IMG/VR virus record: IMGVR_UViG_3300017768_002643
Coordinates: 1 to 22,374 of that record
Reading direction: 5' to 3' (one strand)
Source of the DNA: a virus
DNA: 22,374 nt
In this document: in pieces, positions 4,617 to 22,182 of the stretch
How positions within the stretch are numbered: the stretch's first letter is position 1
Layout: each line of letters starts with the position of its first letter
The notes under the pieces: model-generated
Seen by the model: the letters and a program-made list of their open reading frames with translations, nothing else
What the model was told of the DNA's origin: nothing
The model's database searches: none
Position numbers and translations under genes: made by a program

Positions 4617-5096
4617 TTGAGTGATTACGACCCACGTAGTTGGTGGGATCACTTTTGCAAACCACAATTAAATAAAAAAGTTATGAGCGACTCAGTAAAG
4701 AAGCACTTCGAAATAATTTCCGAAGAGGAAATGGACAAGTTAGAAGGAACAACTGTATCAGATGCAGTTGAAGTATTTGAAACAGAATACCCAGAATTAT
4801 CAGCTGAATATAAAAAGATAGGAAATGAAATGTATGAAATGTTTGCTCGCAAGCACATGGATTATGGTTTAAATAATATCGCTTTAGGAGGTGATATCCT
4901 AAATAATGAAGCAGATAAAAAATTCTCACTAACAGGATTAGCAATTAGATTAACTGATAAAATAAGTAGATTAAAAAATTTATTAGTTAATGGTAAAAAC
5001 TTTGTTAAAGGTGAAGGTATGGAAGATACCTTTATCGATATAGCAAATTATGGTATAATTGGTCTTTTAGTAGGCCGTGATAAATGGAAAAAATAA
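4617..5096 (+). CDS. DUF1599 / nucleotide modification associated domain 1 protein
   Basis: This 159-residue protein has the all-helical DUF1599 pattern: 'MYEMFARKHMDYGLNNIALGG' (about 72-92), then 'GLAIRLTDKISRLKNLL' (107-123) and 'EGMEDTFIDIANYGIIGLLV' (133-152). The E and D residues spaced along these helices resemble the metal-binding set of MazG/dUTPase-like all-alpha pyrophosphatases, to which I would compare it. The family is named for its proximity to base-modification genes in phages; the reaction is not established. I use the TTG at 4617 because it abuts the previous stop, as other genes here do. The first internal ATG is at 4683 and would remove 22 residues outside the domain. The next gene begins directly after the stop. 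Confidence 0.8.
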   Translation: MSDYDPRSWWDHFCKPQLNKKVMSDSVKKHFEIISEEEMDKLEGTTVSDAVEVFETEYPELSAEYKKIGNEMYEMFARKHMDYGLNNIALGGDILNNEADKKFSLTGLAIRLTDKISRLKNLLVNGKNFVKGEGMEDTFIDIANYGIIGLLVGRDKWKK

Positions 5097-5549
5097 ATGA
5101 TATATTGGTTCACAGGTCAACCTAACTCAGGTAAAACCGTTTTAGCGAATGCGCTTAAGGAAAAATGGCTACCCCATGCTTTTAGAATAGATGGGGATGA
5201 AATGAGATATTTATTCACTAATAAAGATTACTCTATAAAAGGTAGAATAACAAATGTAGATGCAGCTCAAAAAATAGCTCATTATTTACATAATCAAGGT
5301 AAGGATGTAATTGTATCATTAGTTTCACCTTATTTAGATCAACGTGAAGAATTTAAAGCACTACTTAGTTGGCAATTAAAAGAAATCTACGTACATTATG
5401 ACCCAACAAATGGTAAAAGAGGTAGAGAAAAATGGTGGGTAGATCAATTTCAAGCACCAACATCTAATTTTTTAGATATTGACACCACAATAGACGACCC
5501 AGAAGATTCATTAATTAAAATAACAAATTACGTACATGGAGAAATTTAA
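5097..5549 (+). CDS. Adenylylsulfate kinase-like P-loop protein (CysC family)
   Basis: APS kinases phosphorylate adenylylsulfate to PAPS, the donor for sulfation. The 150-residue protein has the P-loop 'GQPNSGKT' (7-14), 'RIDGDEMR' (the DGD-N/E-x-R motif), 'NVDAAQKIAHYLHNQGKDVIVSLVSPY', which follows the family helix and the S-x-x-SPY strand, and a C-terminal 'FLDIDTT' like the family's 'ldT' end. It is shorter than typical CysC (about 170-200), and the usual 'RDPKGLY' lid motif is replaced by a diverged 'NGKRGREKWW' segment, so the substrate may differ. It is the first of four tightly packed genes including a nucleotidyltransferase and a DUF2061 protein. The fold is secure; the substrate is inferred. 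Confidence 0.82.
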   Translation: MIYWFTGQPNSGKTVLANALKEKWLPHAFRIDGDEMRYLFTNKDYSIKGRITNVDAAQKIAHYLHNQGKDVIVSLVSPYLDQREEFKALLSWQLKEIYVHYDPTNGKRGREKWWVDQFQAPTSNFLDIDTTIDDPEDSLIKITNYVHGEI

Positions 5550-5874
5550 TACATACTTTTGTGATATAGATGGAACGATATTTAATTATCGTAAATTTGA
5601 AACATATAAAACAAGCGAACCTGAAGTTATTCCATCAACTTTAGAATTTTTAAATGTAGTAAAAGAACAAGGTCATATGATTATTTTAACAACAGCTAGA
5701 CCTGAAGATCTTAGAGAACATACAATTAAAGAGTTAACCAACAGTAAAGTACCTTATGATAGATTGCTTATGGGTATTGAAAGGGGACCTAGATATCTAA
5801 TTAATGATATGGATCCTAAAAAACCTGGTAAAAGAGCAATCGCGATGAATTTAATTAGAAACGAAGGAATTTAA
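5536..5874 (+). CDS. HAD-superfamily phosphatase, small
   Basis: This is a 112-residue HAD hydrolase with motif I 'DIDGT' (D10 nucleophile, D12 acid/base), motif II near 'TTARP' (52-56) and a late acidic motif 'NDMDP' (90-94). It lacks a large cap, as in small sugar-phosphate or capsule-type phosphatases. Residues after motif II, 'EHTIKELTNSKVPYDRLLMG', follow the usual HAD core. The start overlaps the APS-kinase-like gene by 14 bases. Placed between a kinase and a nucleotidyltransferase, it would fit dephosphorylation of an activated sugar or nucleotide intermediate, but the substrate cannot be read from the sequence. Confidence 0.87.
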   Translation: MEKFNTYFCDIDGTIFNYRKFETYKTSEPEVIPSTLEFLNVVKEQGHMIILTTARPEDLREHTIKELTNSKVPYDRLLMGIERGPRYLINDMDPKKPGKRAIAMNLIRNEGI

Positions 5875-5875
5875 T

Positions 5876-6226
5876 ATGAAATATTCAATGTTTATAGGTA
5901 GATGGCAACCTTGGCACAAAGGTCATCGATGGTTAATAGACCAGCGTTTAAATGAAGGTAAAAACGTATTAATCTGCATTAGAGATGTAGAACCAAATGA
6001 AAATCAACCATTTACTCCAACTCAAGTCTACAGAAATGTTAGTACTGAACTTCATCATTTAATTGAAGAAGGTAGAGTTAAAGTTATGGTAATTCCTGAT
6101 ATTGAATCAATTAATTATGGAAGAGGAGTAGGATATGATGTTATAGAGCATGTTCCACCTACAGATATTAAAGAAGTATCTGCTACAAAAATCAGAGAGC
6201 AAATGAGAAAGGATGGTAAGTTATAA
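5876..6226 (+). CDS. HxGH-class nucleotidyltransferase
   Basis: This is a compact 116-residue nucleotidyltransferase. 'GRWQPWHKGH' (8-17) holds the HxGH nucleotide-binding motif, and 'SATKIREQMR' (102-111) is the C-terminal S-x-T-x-I-R motif. The start resembles the 'GRFQPFHxGH' of NMN adenylyltransferases (NadM/NadR type) more than classical cytidylyltransferases, but it lacks the length of NadM (about 170). The middle is shortened. It would join a nucleotide to a small phosphate-bearing molecule and release pyrophosphate. Candidates are NAD(+) metabolism or activation of a glycan precursor. It starts one base after the HAD gene ends and overlaps the next gene by 14 bases. Confidence 0.87.
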   Translation: MKYSMFIGRWQPWHKGHRWLIDQRLNEGKNVLICIRDVEPNENQPFTPTQVYRNVSTELHHLIEEGRVKVMVIPDIESINYGRGVGYDVIEHVPPTDIKEVSATKIREQMRKDGKL

Positions 6227-6422
6227 AAGACACATTGCAAAAACAGTTTCATGGAGAATAGTAGGTACAATAGACACAATAGTAATTTCAGGATTAGTAA
6301 CGGGTTCTTGGGTAGCAGGTTTGGCTATAGGGGGTATCGAAGTTATTTCCAAAATGGTGCTTTACTTTCTACACGAAAGAGCTTGGTATAAGTTTAGCAA
6401 GTTTGGAATTAAAGAAAAATAA
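6213..6422 (+). CDS. DUF2061 small membrane protein
   Basis: This 69-residue protein matches the DUF2061 pattern: 'RHIAKTVSWRIVGTIDT' (6-22), a first hydrophobic segment about 19-38, 'GGIEVISKMVLYFLHERAWYK' in outline (40-60) and a basic C-terminus. Two membrane segments place it in the inner membrane. The family's function is unknown; in bacteria I recall it near APS-kinase and sulfate-assimilation genes, which would fit the neighbour three genes upstream, but I cannot verify that here. The gene overlaps the nucleotidyltransferase by 14 bases, and its stop overlaps the next start by one base. Confidence 0.85.
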   Translation: MVSYKRHIAKTVSWRIVGTIDTIVISGLVTGSWVAGLAIGGIEVISKMVLYFLHERAWYKFSKFGIKEK

Positions 6423-20441: not shown

Positions 20442-20969
20442 ATGAGACACTTAATATCAATTATTATGTTGATGATTACACCAACATTGGTAGCTCCTAC
20501 TGCATACGAGCAACCAGAACCAATTAAAATTGAACCAAAAGTAGAAATAATAAATGAAATGGATTTATTTTTAAATGATTTAGGACATAGAGAATCAGGA
20601 AATAGATACGATATTGTTAATAAATTTGGATACATGGGTAAGTATCAATTTGGTAAAGCAACATTAAGAACATTAAAAATTAAAGTAACTAAAGAAGCAT
20701 TTTTAAATAGTCCTGATTTACAGGAATATGCTATGCAACAAAATTTACTTTACAATAAAAAGAAATTACAAAAATATATAGACAAGTTTGAGGGGCAAGA
20801 AATAAATGGTATATTGATAACTGAGTCTGGTATTTTAGCTGCAGCACATTTAGGTGGTCCTGGTAGTGTTAAGAAATTTTTCCGATCAGGTAAAATAATG
20901 CAAGATGGAAACGGAGTAAAAATCACTTCTTATCTGAAACGATTTGGAGGTTATAAATTAAATATATGA
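20442..20969 (+). CDS. Exported lysozyme/lytic transglycosylase-like protein
   Basis: A 175-residue protein with an N-terminal signal-like segment ('HLISIIMLMITPTLVAPTAYE', about 3-22): basic start, hydrophobic core, small residues at the end. Behind it, 'DLGHRESGNRYDIVNKFGYMG' in outline (46-66) places a glutamate (E51) in an E-S-G-x-x-x-Y context as in lysozyme-like transglycosylases, followed by 'KYQFGKATL'. It would act on peptidoglycan in the periplasm. It may be the lysis enzyme or help DNA entry; no holin gene is visible. The call is by motif, not by whole-fold evidence. Its stop overlaps the next gene by four bases (ATGA). Confidence 0.72.
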   Translation: MRHLISIIMLMITPTLVAPTAYEQPEPIKIEPKVEIINEMDLFLNDLGHRESGNRYDIVNKFGYMGKYQFGKATLRTLKIKVTKEAFLNSPDLQEYAMQQNLLYNKKKLQKYIDKFEGQEINGILITESGILAAAHLGGPGSVKKFFRSGKIMQDGNGVKITSYLKRFGGYKLNI

Positions 20970-21553
20970 GAAATAATATAATTACAATAGAAAATTTTTA
21001 TGATAACCCATTAGAGACTAGAGAATGGGTATTAGAACAAGACTTTGCTGTTAGAGGTAATTACCCAGGTCAAAGAACAGTATCACATGCTACTCAACAG
21101 ATGAAAGATATAATTGAATCAGCTGTTAAACCATTAGCAGGTCCAATTACTAGTTTTCCTATAGGCGAAAGAGAAGATGGTGAACCAAATTATAATGGAG
21201 CTTATCAATATACTACTTGTCATGATAAAACTTGGATTCATAGTGATAGTGGTACTTCATGGGCTGCTGTTGTTTATCTAACACCTAATGCACCTTTAAG
21301 CGGTGGTACTGGTTTATATAGACACAAAAGCACTGGTTTACATGAGTGGGTTGATGATGAAAAAGTAATGGATTTAATATGGAGTGAATGTAATGATTAT
21401 ACTAAATGGGATTTATGTGATACAATTGGAAATGTATTTAATAGAATGATTCTATATAGAGGAACTATGTTCCATGCTTCATTAGATTACTTTGGTCAAG
21501 ACATAAATGATGGTAGATTATTTCAAACATTCTTCTTTGATACAGAATATTAA
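20966..21553 (+). CDS. 2OG-Fe(II) oxygenase, DUF6445-like
   Basis: A 195-residue oxygenase with H92 and D94 ('TWIHSDSG'), H170 ('GTMFHASL') and R184 ('GRLFQTFFF'): a complete facial triad plus the 2-oxoglutarate arginine. The central 'WAAVVYLTPNAPLSGGTGLYRHKSTG' in outline (99-124) is typical of small phage oxygenases of the DUF6445 type. The N-terminus 'IITIENFYDNPLETREWVL' matches the 'f.dNP...R' start of this group. It overlaps the previous gene by four bases and the next by one. Its substrate could be a protein, nucleotide or glycan. Confidence 0.83.
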   Translation: MRNNIITIENFYDNPLETREWVLEQDFAVRGNYPGQRTVSHATQQMKDIIESAVKPLAGPITSFPIGEREDGEPNYNGAYQYTTCHDKTWIHSDSGTSWAAVVYLTPNAPLSGGTGLYRHKSTGLHEWVDDEKVMDLIWSECNDYTKWDLCDTIGNVFNRMILYRGTMFHASLDYFGQDINDGRLFQTFFFDTEY

Positions 21554-22182
21554 TGGATAACGGATATTTACATTTAAAACAAGTTATACCATCTGATGTA
21601 GTAGTTGAAGTTAGATATAGGTTAATTGATTTAAAAAACAAATATTTAAATAGAGTTGGTCAACCAAGACATAATGGTTCAGGTACATTTTGGGAGGGTT
21701 TAGAATTAGCAAGTACATTTGATCCTAATTTATGGAAATATTATACTGCTGATTTTATGTTTGATATAGTTAAATCAATTATACCAACACCTTATTTATT
21801 TAACGATCAAGCTGTAGTTAAATTACCTAAATCAGATTTAAAATTTGAAGCACATTATGATAATCAATTTGGTCCTGATCCTGAAGGTGCATTAAGAGGT
21901 GATTTTAAAACAATTAATTGTAGTTGGATATTAACTAATATGAATGAATCAAATGGTTGTTTGTATATAGATGATAAACCAATTATAGCAAATGCAGGTG
22001 ATATAGTTATAATAGATGGAAATAAAACCCATTATTCAGGTATTAATAAAACAAACGGAGTAAGAGTATTATATGCTTGCTGTTATTCAAGTAAACCAAT
22101 TGGTAATTTTCAATCTGGATTTTATAATGAAGAATTTAAAAGAAATACAAGTAACATTACAGGAAATTTGGGCGGCTACTAG
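21553..22182 (+). CDS. 2OG-Fe(II) oxygenase, phytanoyl-CoA dioxygenase-like (PhyH)
   Basis: A 209-residue PhyH-type oxygenase. H101 and D103 come from 'FEAHYDNQFGP', H160 from 'GNKTHYSG' and R171 from 'GVRVLYAC', so the facial triad and the 2-oxoglutarate arginine are complete. 'NCSWILTNMNESNGCLYI' (122-139) is the family's central strand pair, and 'AGDIVIIDGNKTH' leads to the second His. It differs from the neighbouring oxygenase in fold details, so the two are not recent duplicates. The adjoining pair may act in one pathway or on one substrate. The gene ends before the fourth promoter copy. Confidence 0.85.
   Translation: MDNGYLHLKQVIPSDVVVEVRYRLIDLKNKYLNRVGQPRHNGSGTFWEGLELASTFDPNLWKYYTADFMFDIVKSIIPTPYLFNDQAVVKLPKSDLKFEAHYDNQFGPDPEGALRGDFKTINCSWILTNMNESNGCLYIDDKPIIANAGDIVIIDGNKTHYSGINKTNGVRVLYACCYSSKPIGNFQSGFYNEEFKRNTSNITGNLGGY

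Follow-up and report, generated by a model that had tools for sequence, protein, structure and literature searches.

A compact nucleotidyltransferase paired with APS kinase in aquatic phages and marine microbes is a candidate third type of ATP sulfurylase

The four-gene cassette described here is best explained by its context as a phage-borne sulfate-activation module that makes PAPS, a reading to which we assign a probability of roughly 0.8. One of its members, a compact HxGH nucleotidyltransferase (NT), is probably a third family of ATP sulfurylase, about 115 residues long, that replaces Sat or CysDN in most SAR11 and in diverse marine bacteria and archaea. Many aquatic phages would then carry this enzyme with an APS kinase, a sulfotransferase and a DUF2061 protein as a complete sulfation pathway. 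In our best reading, the NT and a lid-shortened APS kinase together constitute a mini PAPS synthetase. What was observed is gene order, conservation, gene fusions, neighbouring genes, predicted folds and patterns of presence and absence, and from these we infer the ATP sulfurylase activity, the substrate of the HAD phosphatase, the role of DUF2061 and the final acceptor.

The cassette is located in a virus record of 22,374 bases with a G+C content of ~29%, and this whole stretch of DNA is hereafter called the window. The window also encodes GroES/GroEL, clamp-loader proteins, a PD-(D/E)XK nuclease, glycosyltransferases, a RecA-like protein and a DNA ligase, some of which were named by inspection. 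All four open reading frames of the cassette that were listed in the initial annotation are present on the plus strand, and every one of them scores above the curated Pfam cut-off. They are a 150 amino acid APS-kinase-like P-loop kinase with a shortened lid (KIN; 5097 to 5549, PF01583), a small HAD phosphatase that is an optional member and a candidate PAP 3'-phosphatase (5536 to 5874, several HAD families), the 116 amino acid NT, an adenylyltransferase proposed as the third ATP sulfurylase type (5876 to 6226, PF01467), and a 69 amino acid predicted membrane protein of the DUF2061 family, a putative membrane partner (6213 to 6422, PF09834). These genes had been described as overlapping end to end, which is true of the kinase and HAD genes and of the NT and DUF2061 genes (14 nucleotides each) but not of the HAD and NT genes, which are separated by a single nucleotide.

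Directly 5' of the kinase gene is a DUF1599 gene (nucleotide modification associated domain 1; 4617 to 5096) with a TTG start codon, whose linkage to the cassette is confined to the window's own phage lineage. Genes for glycosyltransferases, an epimerase and a UDP-glucose dehydrogenase are found downstream of the cassette. Elsewhere in the window, a GroES/GroEL pair (515 to 2543) is located 5' of the clamp-loader genes and is kept in close relatives, and a DUF6445 gene followed by a gene for a PhyH-type dioxygenase (20966 to 22182) occupies the end of the window.

The kinase matches the APS_kinase family PF01583 (E-value of 2.2e-15, 57.5 bits against a cut-off of 21.1) and falls below the cut-off of the curated equivalog model TIGR00455 (58.8 versus 138.7 bits). 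It resembles the APS kinase CysC, which these two models describe, in its fold, its Walker A and DGD motifs and its conserved set of R37, R50 and N53. We take these invariant or near-invariant Arg, Arg and Asn residues to be the equivalents of APS-binding residues in fungal APS kinase. Unlike CysC, the window kinase has lost the RDPKGLY lid motif, as had been proposed, together with the lid segment that follows. The sequence found in place of the motif is KRGREKWWVDQFQAP, and the lid reads RGREKWWVDQFQAP, wherein R108 is the only lid residue retained. This arginine is present in 54 of 55 aligned kinases. An AlphaFold model of the kinase (pLDDT 94.7), built from an alignment that took in five full-length APS kinases, retrieves APS kinases first among solved structures, with a Z score of 21.2 and an rmsd of 2.0 Å over 149 residues to 7yq1, the Archaeoglobus APS kinase with APS. 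The first structures that are not APS kinases are gluconate kinases (Z 16.7), and others are near 14.

The NT exceeds the cut-off of CTP_transf_like PF01467 (E-value of 2.3e-5). It is indeed shortened, as initially noted, with 116 amino acids compared to 168 to 181 in the archaeal NMN adenylyltransferases of the PDB, which are its best matches by both sequence and fold. The predicted structure (pLDDT 88.4) has the PPAT/NMNAT fold with Z scores of about 10.8 to 10.9. The match lists from Foldseek and VIA-align are composed of PPAT and NMNAT structures, and they neither support nor exclude a relation to Sat. Like archaeal NMN adenylyltransferase (NadM; 1ej2, 1f9a), the NT has an HxGH core with the pattern GRxQPxHxGH and a C-terminal SxTxxR motif. 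Unlike NadM, it has an invariant GRxVGY motif and a short linker in place of ~45 residues before the shared SxTxxR motif, and an invariant arginine (R36) at a position where NMNAT has glycine. A smaller second substrate would suit these differences from NadM, and an anion may be bound by R36 and R83. Sat, which is an HxGH nucleotidyltransferase too, and CysDN carry out the reaction that we propose for the NT. CysD belongs to a different family. A direct sequence link to Sat was considered and set aside, given that the NT scores below the PF01747 cut-off (12.5 versus 24.3 bits, E-value of 0.097), and the sulfate-binding residues of Sat have no recognisable counterparts in the NT.

Because the NT hits NadM, the first function considered was NAD salvage, a NadR-like combination wherein the kinase would phosphorylate nicotinamide riboside and the NT would adenylylate NMN, possibly as a means of restoring NAD under host defence. 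The close resemblance to archaeal NMN adenylyltransferases speaks for this function, as does a NADAR gene that adjoins the fused kinase-NT gene of Stenotrophomonas phage Bhz60 (L004, 3148 to 4324, Casjensviridae), where a MazG-like gene is also close. The divergent Casjensviridae subfamily represented by this phage may use another substrate. However, the NT remains below the cut-offs of the curated NadM model TIGR01527 (27.8 versus 181.2 bits) and of a second curated NMNAT model (35.6 versus 127 bits). In addition, its profile alignment with the archaeal NMNATs of the PDB breaks at residue 76, ahead of a stretch present in those enzymes but absent from this family, and the kinase groups with APS kinases. 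The neighbours of the family are APS kinase, aprBA, sulfotransferases and a cys-type DUF2061 rather than NAD genes. These cut-offs, the lack of the C-terminal segment and the gene neighbourhood led us to reject NAD salvage of the NadR/NadM type, which we regard as very unlikely.

Relatives of the NT and the kinase were gathered from IMG/VR, where at least 595 and at least 346 candidate stretches, respectively, encode them, and thus both genes are common in aquatic phages. There are 156 phage NT loci in our collection, some of which were obtained with the kinase as the query. The kinase gene is directly upstream of the NT gene in 100 of these, and the order kinase-HAD-NT is found in 47. Among the remaining nine, the kinase gene is further upstream, within 2 kb, in seven and is missing in two, both of which begin at the end of a contig. 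When the NT was the only query, the kinase was found in 78 of 80 loci. With the kinase linked in nearly all of the 156 loci, the arrangement is not a matter of chance.

The core of the cassette is the kinase and the NT, and the HAD and DUF2061 genes are optional but faithful when present. HAD is missing in about two thirds of the loci, and 15 of 18 non-redundant phage HAD homologues are located directly between the kinase and the NT. Likewise, 63 of 67 non-redundant phage homologues of DUF2061 have the NT nearby, 54 of them in the adjacent position. The four-gene string of the initial annotation, when searched for in phages and bacteria, holds together at its kinase-NT pair, which is neither split apart in relatives nor made up of unrelated standard activities, and in part dissolves at the two optional genes. 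Kinase and NT are combined in one protein, matching PHROG 10255, in phages of Xanthomonas and Stenotrophomonas, namely two Casjensviridae and DLP6. The NT identity of these phage fusions is 32 to 36%.

The composition of this core also bears on the earlier proposal that the cassette activates a sugar precursor. More broadly, the kinase or the NT might act on another small acid, a sugar phosphate or a phosphonate by the logic of ADP-heptose or CDP-polyol synthesis, and so feed the downstream glycosyltransferases. A kinase, a HAD phosphatase and an HxGH nucleotidyltransferase are the enzyme types of ADP-heptose synthesis, and the glycosyltransferase, epimerase and UDP-glucose dehydrogenase genes downstream would suit such a pathway. 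The dispensable HAD and a kinase that is APS-kinase-like, rather than of the PfkB or GHMP type, nevertheless led us to reject it. Moreover, there are no recurring sugar-activation neighbours, and the kinase-NT pair also occurs next to aprBA and CysC, contexts that require no sugar nucleotide. The proposal did not survive these comparisons, and we hold sugar activation to be highly improbable.

Sulfation, which had been raised as a possibility in the initial annotation, fares better, with curated APS kinases fused or adjacent to the NT, aprBA adjacent to it, and sulfotransferases nearby in both phages and bacteria. Matches to Sulfotransfer_3 (PF13469) are found in 21 of 49 larger cassette-bearing phage records, of which 15 are above the cut-off, and the strong matches are mostly located just upstream of the kinase gene. 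A profile for a 272 amino acid sulfotransferase identifies a member upstream in 28 of 128 non-redundant loci with room for one, and the stop and start codons overlap by four nucleotides in many of these. In the reverse search, the kinase is present in the flanks of 31 of 70 non-redundant sulfotransferase loci and is within 70 bases in 20 of them. This tight spacing between sulfotransferase and kinase genes is a stronger argument than the sulfotransferase frequencies, which were taken from cassette-bearing phages. In one locus (L333), two different sulfotransferases, one from PF03567 and one from the 272 amino acid family, precede kinase-HAD-NT. No recognised sulfotransferase was found in the 22-kb window with two sulfotransferase queries. 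In a 145-kb relative (L360), exonuclease, kinase-HAD, NT, DUF2061 and two glycosyltransferases follow one another as they do in the window, and the glycan block of this relative holds a PF00685 sulfotransferase.

To find cellular relatives, GTDB genomes were scanned once with an alignment of the NT family. Members occur in Marinimicrobia, Bacteroidota, Omnitrophota, Nitrospirota, Acidobacteriota, Planctomycetota, Marine Group III archaea and many Pelagibacteraceae, and the NT is mostly fused to a kinase or adjoins one. Several of these kinases exceed the TIGR00455 cut-off of 138.7 bits, including those in an NT-kinase fusion from Omnitrophota (L179, 203 bits), a fusion in the reverse order from Nomurabacteria (L195, 200 bits), a DUF2061-kinase protein followed by the NT (L212, 187 bits) and the CysC of a CysC-NT locus (L175, 255 bits). 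Bacterial sulfotransferases near the NT score above Pfam cut-offs in four loci (two in L165, and one each in L179, L186 and L189) and exactly at the cut-off in L212. By inspection, genes resembling those for SAM synthetase, adenosylhomocysteinase and methionine synthase surround the NT in Bacteroidota and Marine Group III. In three Bacteroidota loci (L173 to L175), a second, TagD-like nucleotidyltransferase of 132 amino acids is encoded between CysC and the compact NT. Two consecutive sulfatase-like genes, also recognised by inspection, are located 3' of the fused NT-APS kinase and the sulfotransferases of L179 (9107 to 12149).

Among 28 NT-bearing cellular genomes from GTDB, 22 have neither Sat nor CysD, including Bacteroidota that encode a full-length CysC beside the NT. 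PF01747 is present in four of the 28 and a CysD-like protein in three, with both in one genome, and these co-occurrences count against the sulfurylase reading. Many of the 28 are single-cell or metagenome assemblies in which some absences may be gaps, and we therefore took a set of 148 SAR11-family genomes, each at least 85% complete.

Most SAR11 lack ATP sulfurylase despite having AprAB (2023 paper, PMC10356861). In our set, the NT is present in 109 genomes and AprA in 106, with both in 94, the NT only in 15, AprA only in 12 and neither in 27. This co-occurrence corresponds to an odds ratio of 14 and a Fisher p value of 3e-10, which is too small because related genomes are not independent. 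The 12 AprA-positive genomes that lack the NT are a further point against its assignment as a sulfurylase. Classical Sat is found in nine of the 148 genomes and CysD in five, all five of which are NT-negative, and 102 of the 109 NT genomes have neither enzyme. Given AprAB, the general lack of Sat and CysD, and the frequency of the NT, this protein is a natural candidate for the missing ATP sulfurylase step.

The gene order in SAR11 points in the same direction, with the NT gene directly upstream of genes for a 264 amino acid membrane protein and the sulfite-oxidation proteins AprB and AprA. Both Apr subunits exceed the cut-offs of their curated models (TIGR02060, 188 bits; TIGR02061, 999 bits). 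The NT and aprA genes are within 8 kb of each other in 25 of the 148 genomes. The majority of SAR11 genomes encode the NT away from aprBA, next to a divergent kinase and various other genes. By inspection, the neighbours of such kinase-NT pairs (L210-like loci) encode a Rieske-type oxygenase, methyltransferases, an enoyl-CoA-hydratase-like protein and a selenium-binding, methanethiol-oxidase-like protein. The divergent kinase-NT pairs of the SAR11 and Casjensviridae types might use another substrate.

The linkage to aprBA without a kinase in part of SAR11 also invites the suggestion that the NT works only in reverse, cleaving APS with pyrophosphate to yield ATP and sulfate after AprAB, and that it supplements the host sulfurylase in phages. 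We doubt this strongly, since the partners of the NT in phages and Bacteroidota, APS kinase and sulfotransferase, both depend on the forward direction. The reaction of known ATP sulfurylases is reversible, and operation in reverse is thus a sub-case of the sulfurylase assignment more than a rival to it.

The 69 amino acid protein of the window matches DUF2061 (PF09834) with an E-value of 6.7e-22 and 78.1 bits against a cut-off of 23.1. DUF2061 was found in 22 of 198 Bacteroidota genomes, and CysH and/or CysD adjoin it in ~13 of these 22 loci as judged by inspection. Representative loci were confirmed with curated models. DUF2061 occurs with CysD and a CysH-like protein in L337, with CysH and CysD in L341, and with CysQ, CysC and CysD around it in L350, and it is fused to an APS kinase with a second APS kinase alongside in L351. 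Such fusions are found in two loci, L212 and L351. The residence of DUF2061 in Bacteroidota cysH/cysD/cysC/cysQ operons indicates sulfate activation independently of the NT, and these operons offer a lead to its function in that phylum. The membrane component proposed in the initial annotation is plausible, and it is a cys-operon resident as well as an optional part of the cassette.

The HAD protein carries motif I (DxDGT, present as CDIDGTI) and matches several HAD families, the best being PF03767 (E-value of 6e-7, 29.6 bits versus a cut-off of 27), followed by PF08282 (26.8 versus 20.9 bits). In loci that have it, this protein may dephosphorylate the by-product PAP at the 3' position. It has a weak similarity to the PNKP 3'-phosphatase domain, just under the cut-off (E-value of 1.2e-5, 25.9 versus 27.6 bits). 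The least credible of the alternatives is a split polynucleotide kinase-phosphatase for nucleic-acid repair, like T4 Pnkp, with an unrelated NT alongside, which draws on weak matches of both kinase and HAD to PHROG 505 (polynucleotide kinase), a kinase-HAD fusion in the 145-kb relative (L024/L360) and the replication genes upstream, and which we rejected since APS kinases lead the structural matches of the kinase model by a wide margin and the conserved pair is kinase-NT rather than kinase-HAD.

The module, as we propose it, would begin with the NT converting ATP and inorganic sulfate to APS and pyrophosphate, as ATP sulfurylase does. The NT would do so as a minimal HxGH domain, a relative of NMN adenylyltransferase in which another segment has taken the place of the substrate-binding C-terminal part. 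Phosphorylation of the 3'-OH of APS by the APS-kinase-like protein would then give PAPS. A sulfotransferase from the phage or the host would use PAPS to produce a sulfated product and PAP, and its target is probably a glycan or a phage structure. The neighbouring glycosyltransferases make a glycan our first guess for the acceptor. Finally, the HAD protein, or the host, would convert PAP to AMP, and DUF2061 might anchor or assist the module at the membrane. Gene linkage supports the steps given to NT, kinase and sulfotransferase, whereas the chemistry of NT and HAD is what we infer.

The closest known system is PAPS synthetase (animal PAPSS and the Aquifex Sat-APS kinase 2gks), in which APS kinase is likewise joined to an HxGH adenylyltransferase. 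The cassette family shares with it fusions in both domain orders and the proposed production of PAPS from ATP and sulfate. It differs in that the NT is ~116 residues long, fails PF01747, lacks the accessory domains of Sat and resembles NMNAT/PPAT, and in that the phage kinase has a shortened lid. In the open-access literature, we found no earlier description combining these enzymes. Viral cysC 'auxiliary metabolic genes' and adenylylsulfate kinase in uncultivated viruses appear in articles matched by keyword only (PMC9789665, PMC12766990). The partnership with NT and sulfotransferase suggests phage-directed sulfation, and not host sulfur assimilation, for the kinase of the cassette.

If the proposed module is real, many phages produce their own PAPS and use it for a sulfation of their own, and at least some viral cysC genes that are now read as host sulfur-assimilation genes would be recast. 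DUF2061, a family with no assigned function, is tied to sulfate activation. For SAR11, which rank with the most abundant of all ocean cells, the NT family provides a small, concrete candidate for the published ATP sulfurylase gap, and it bears on whether these cells conserve energy from sulfite.
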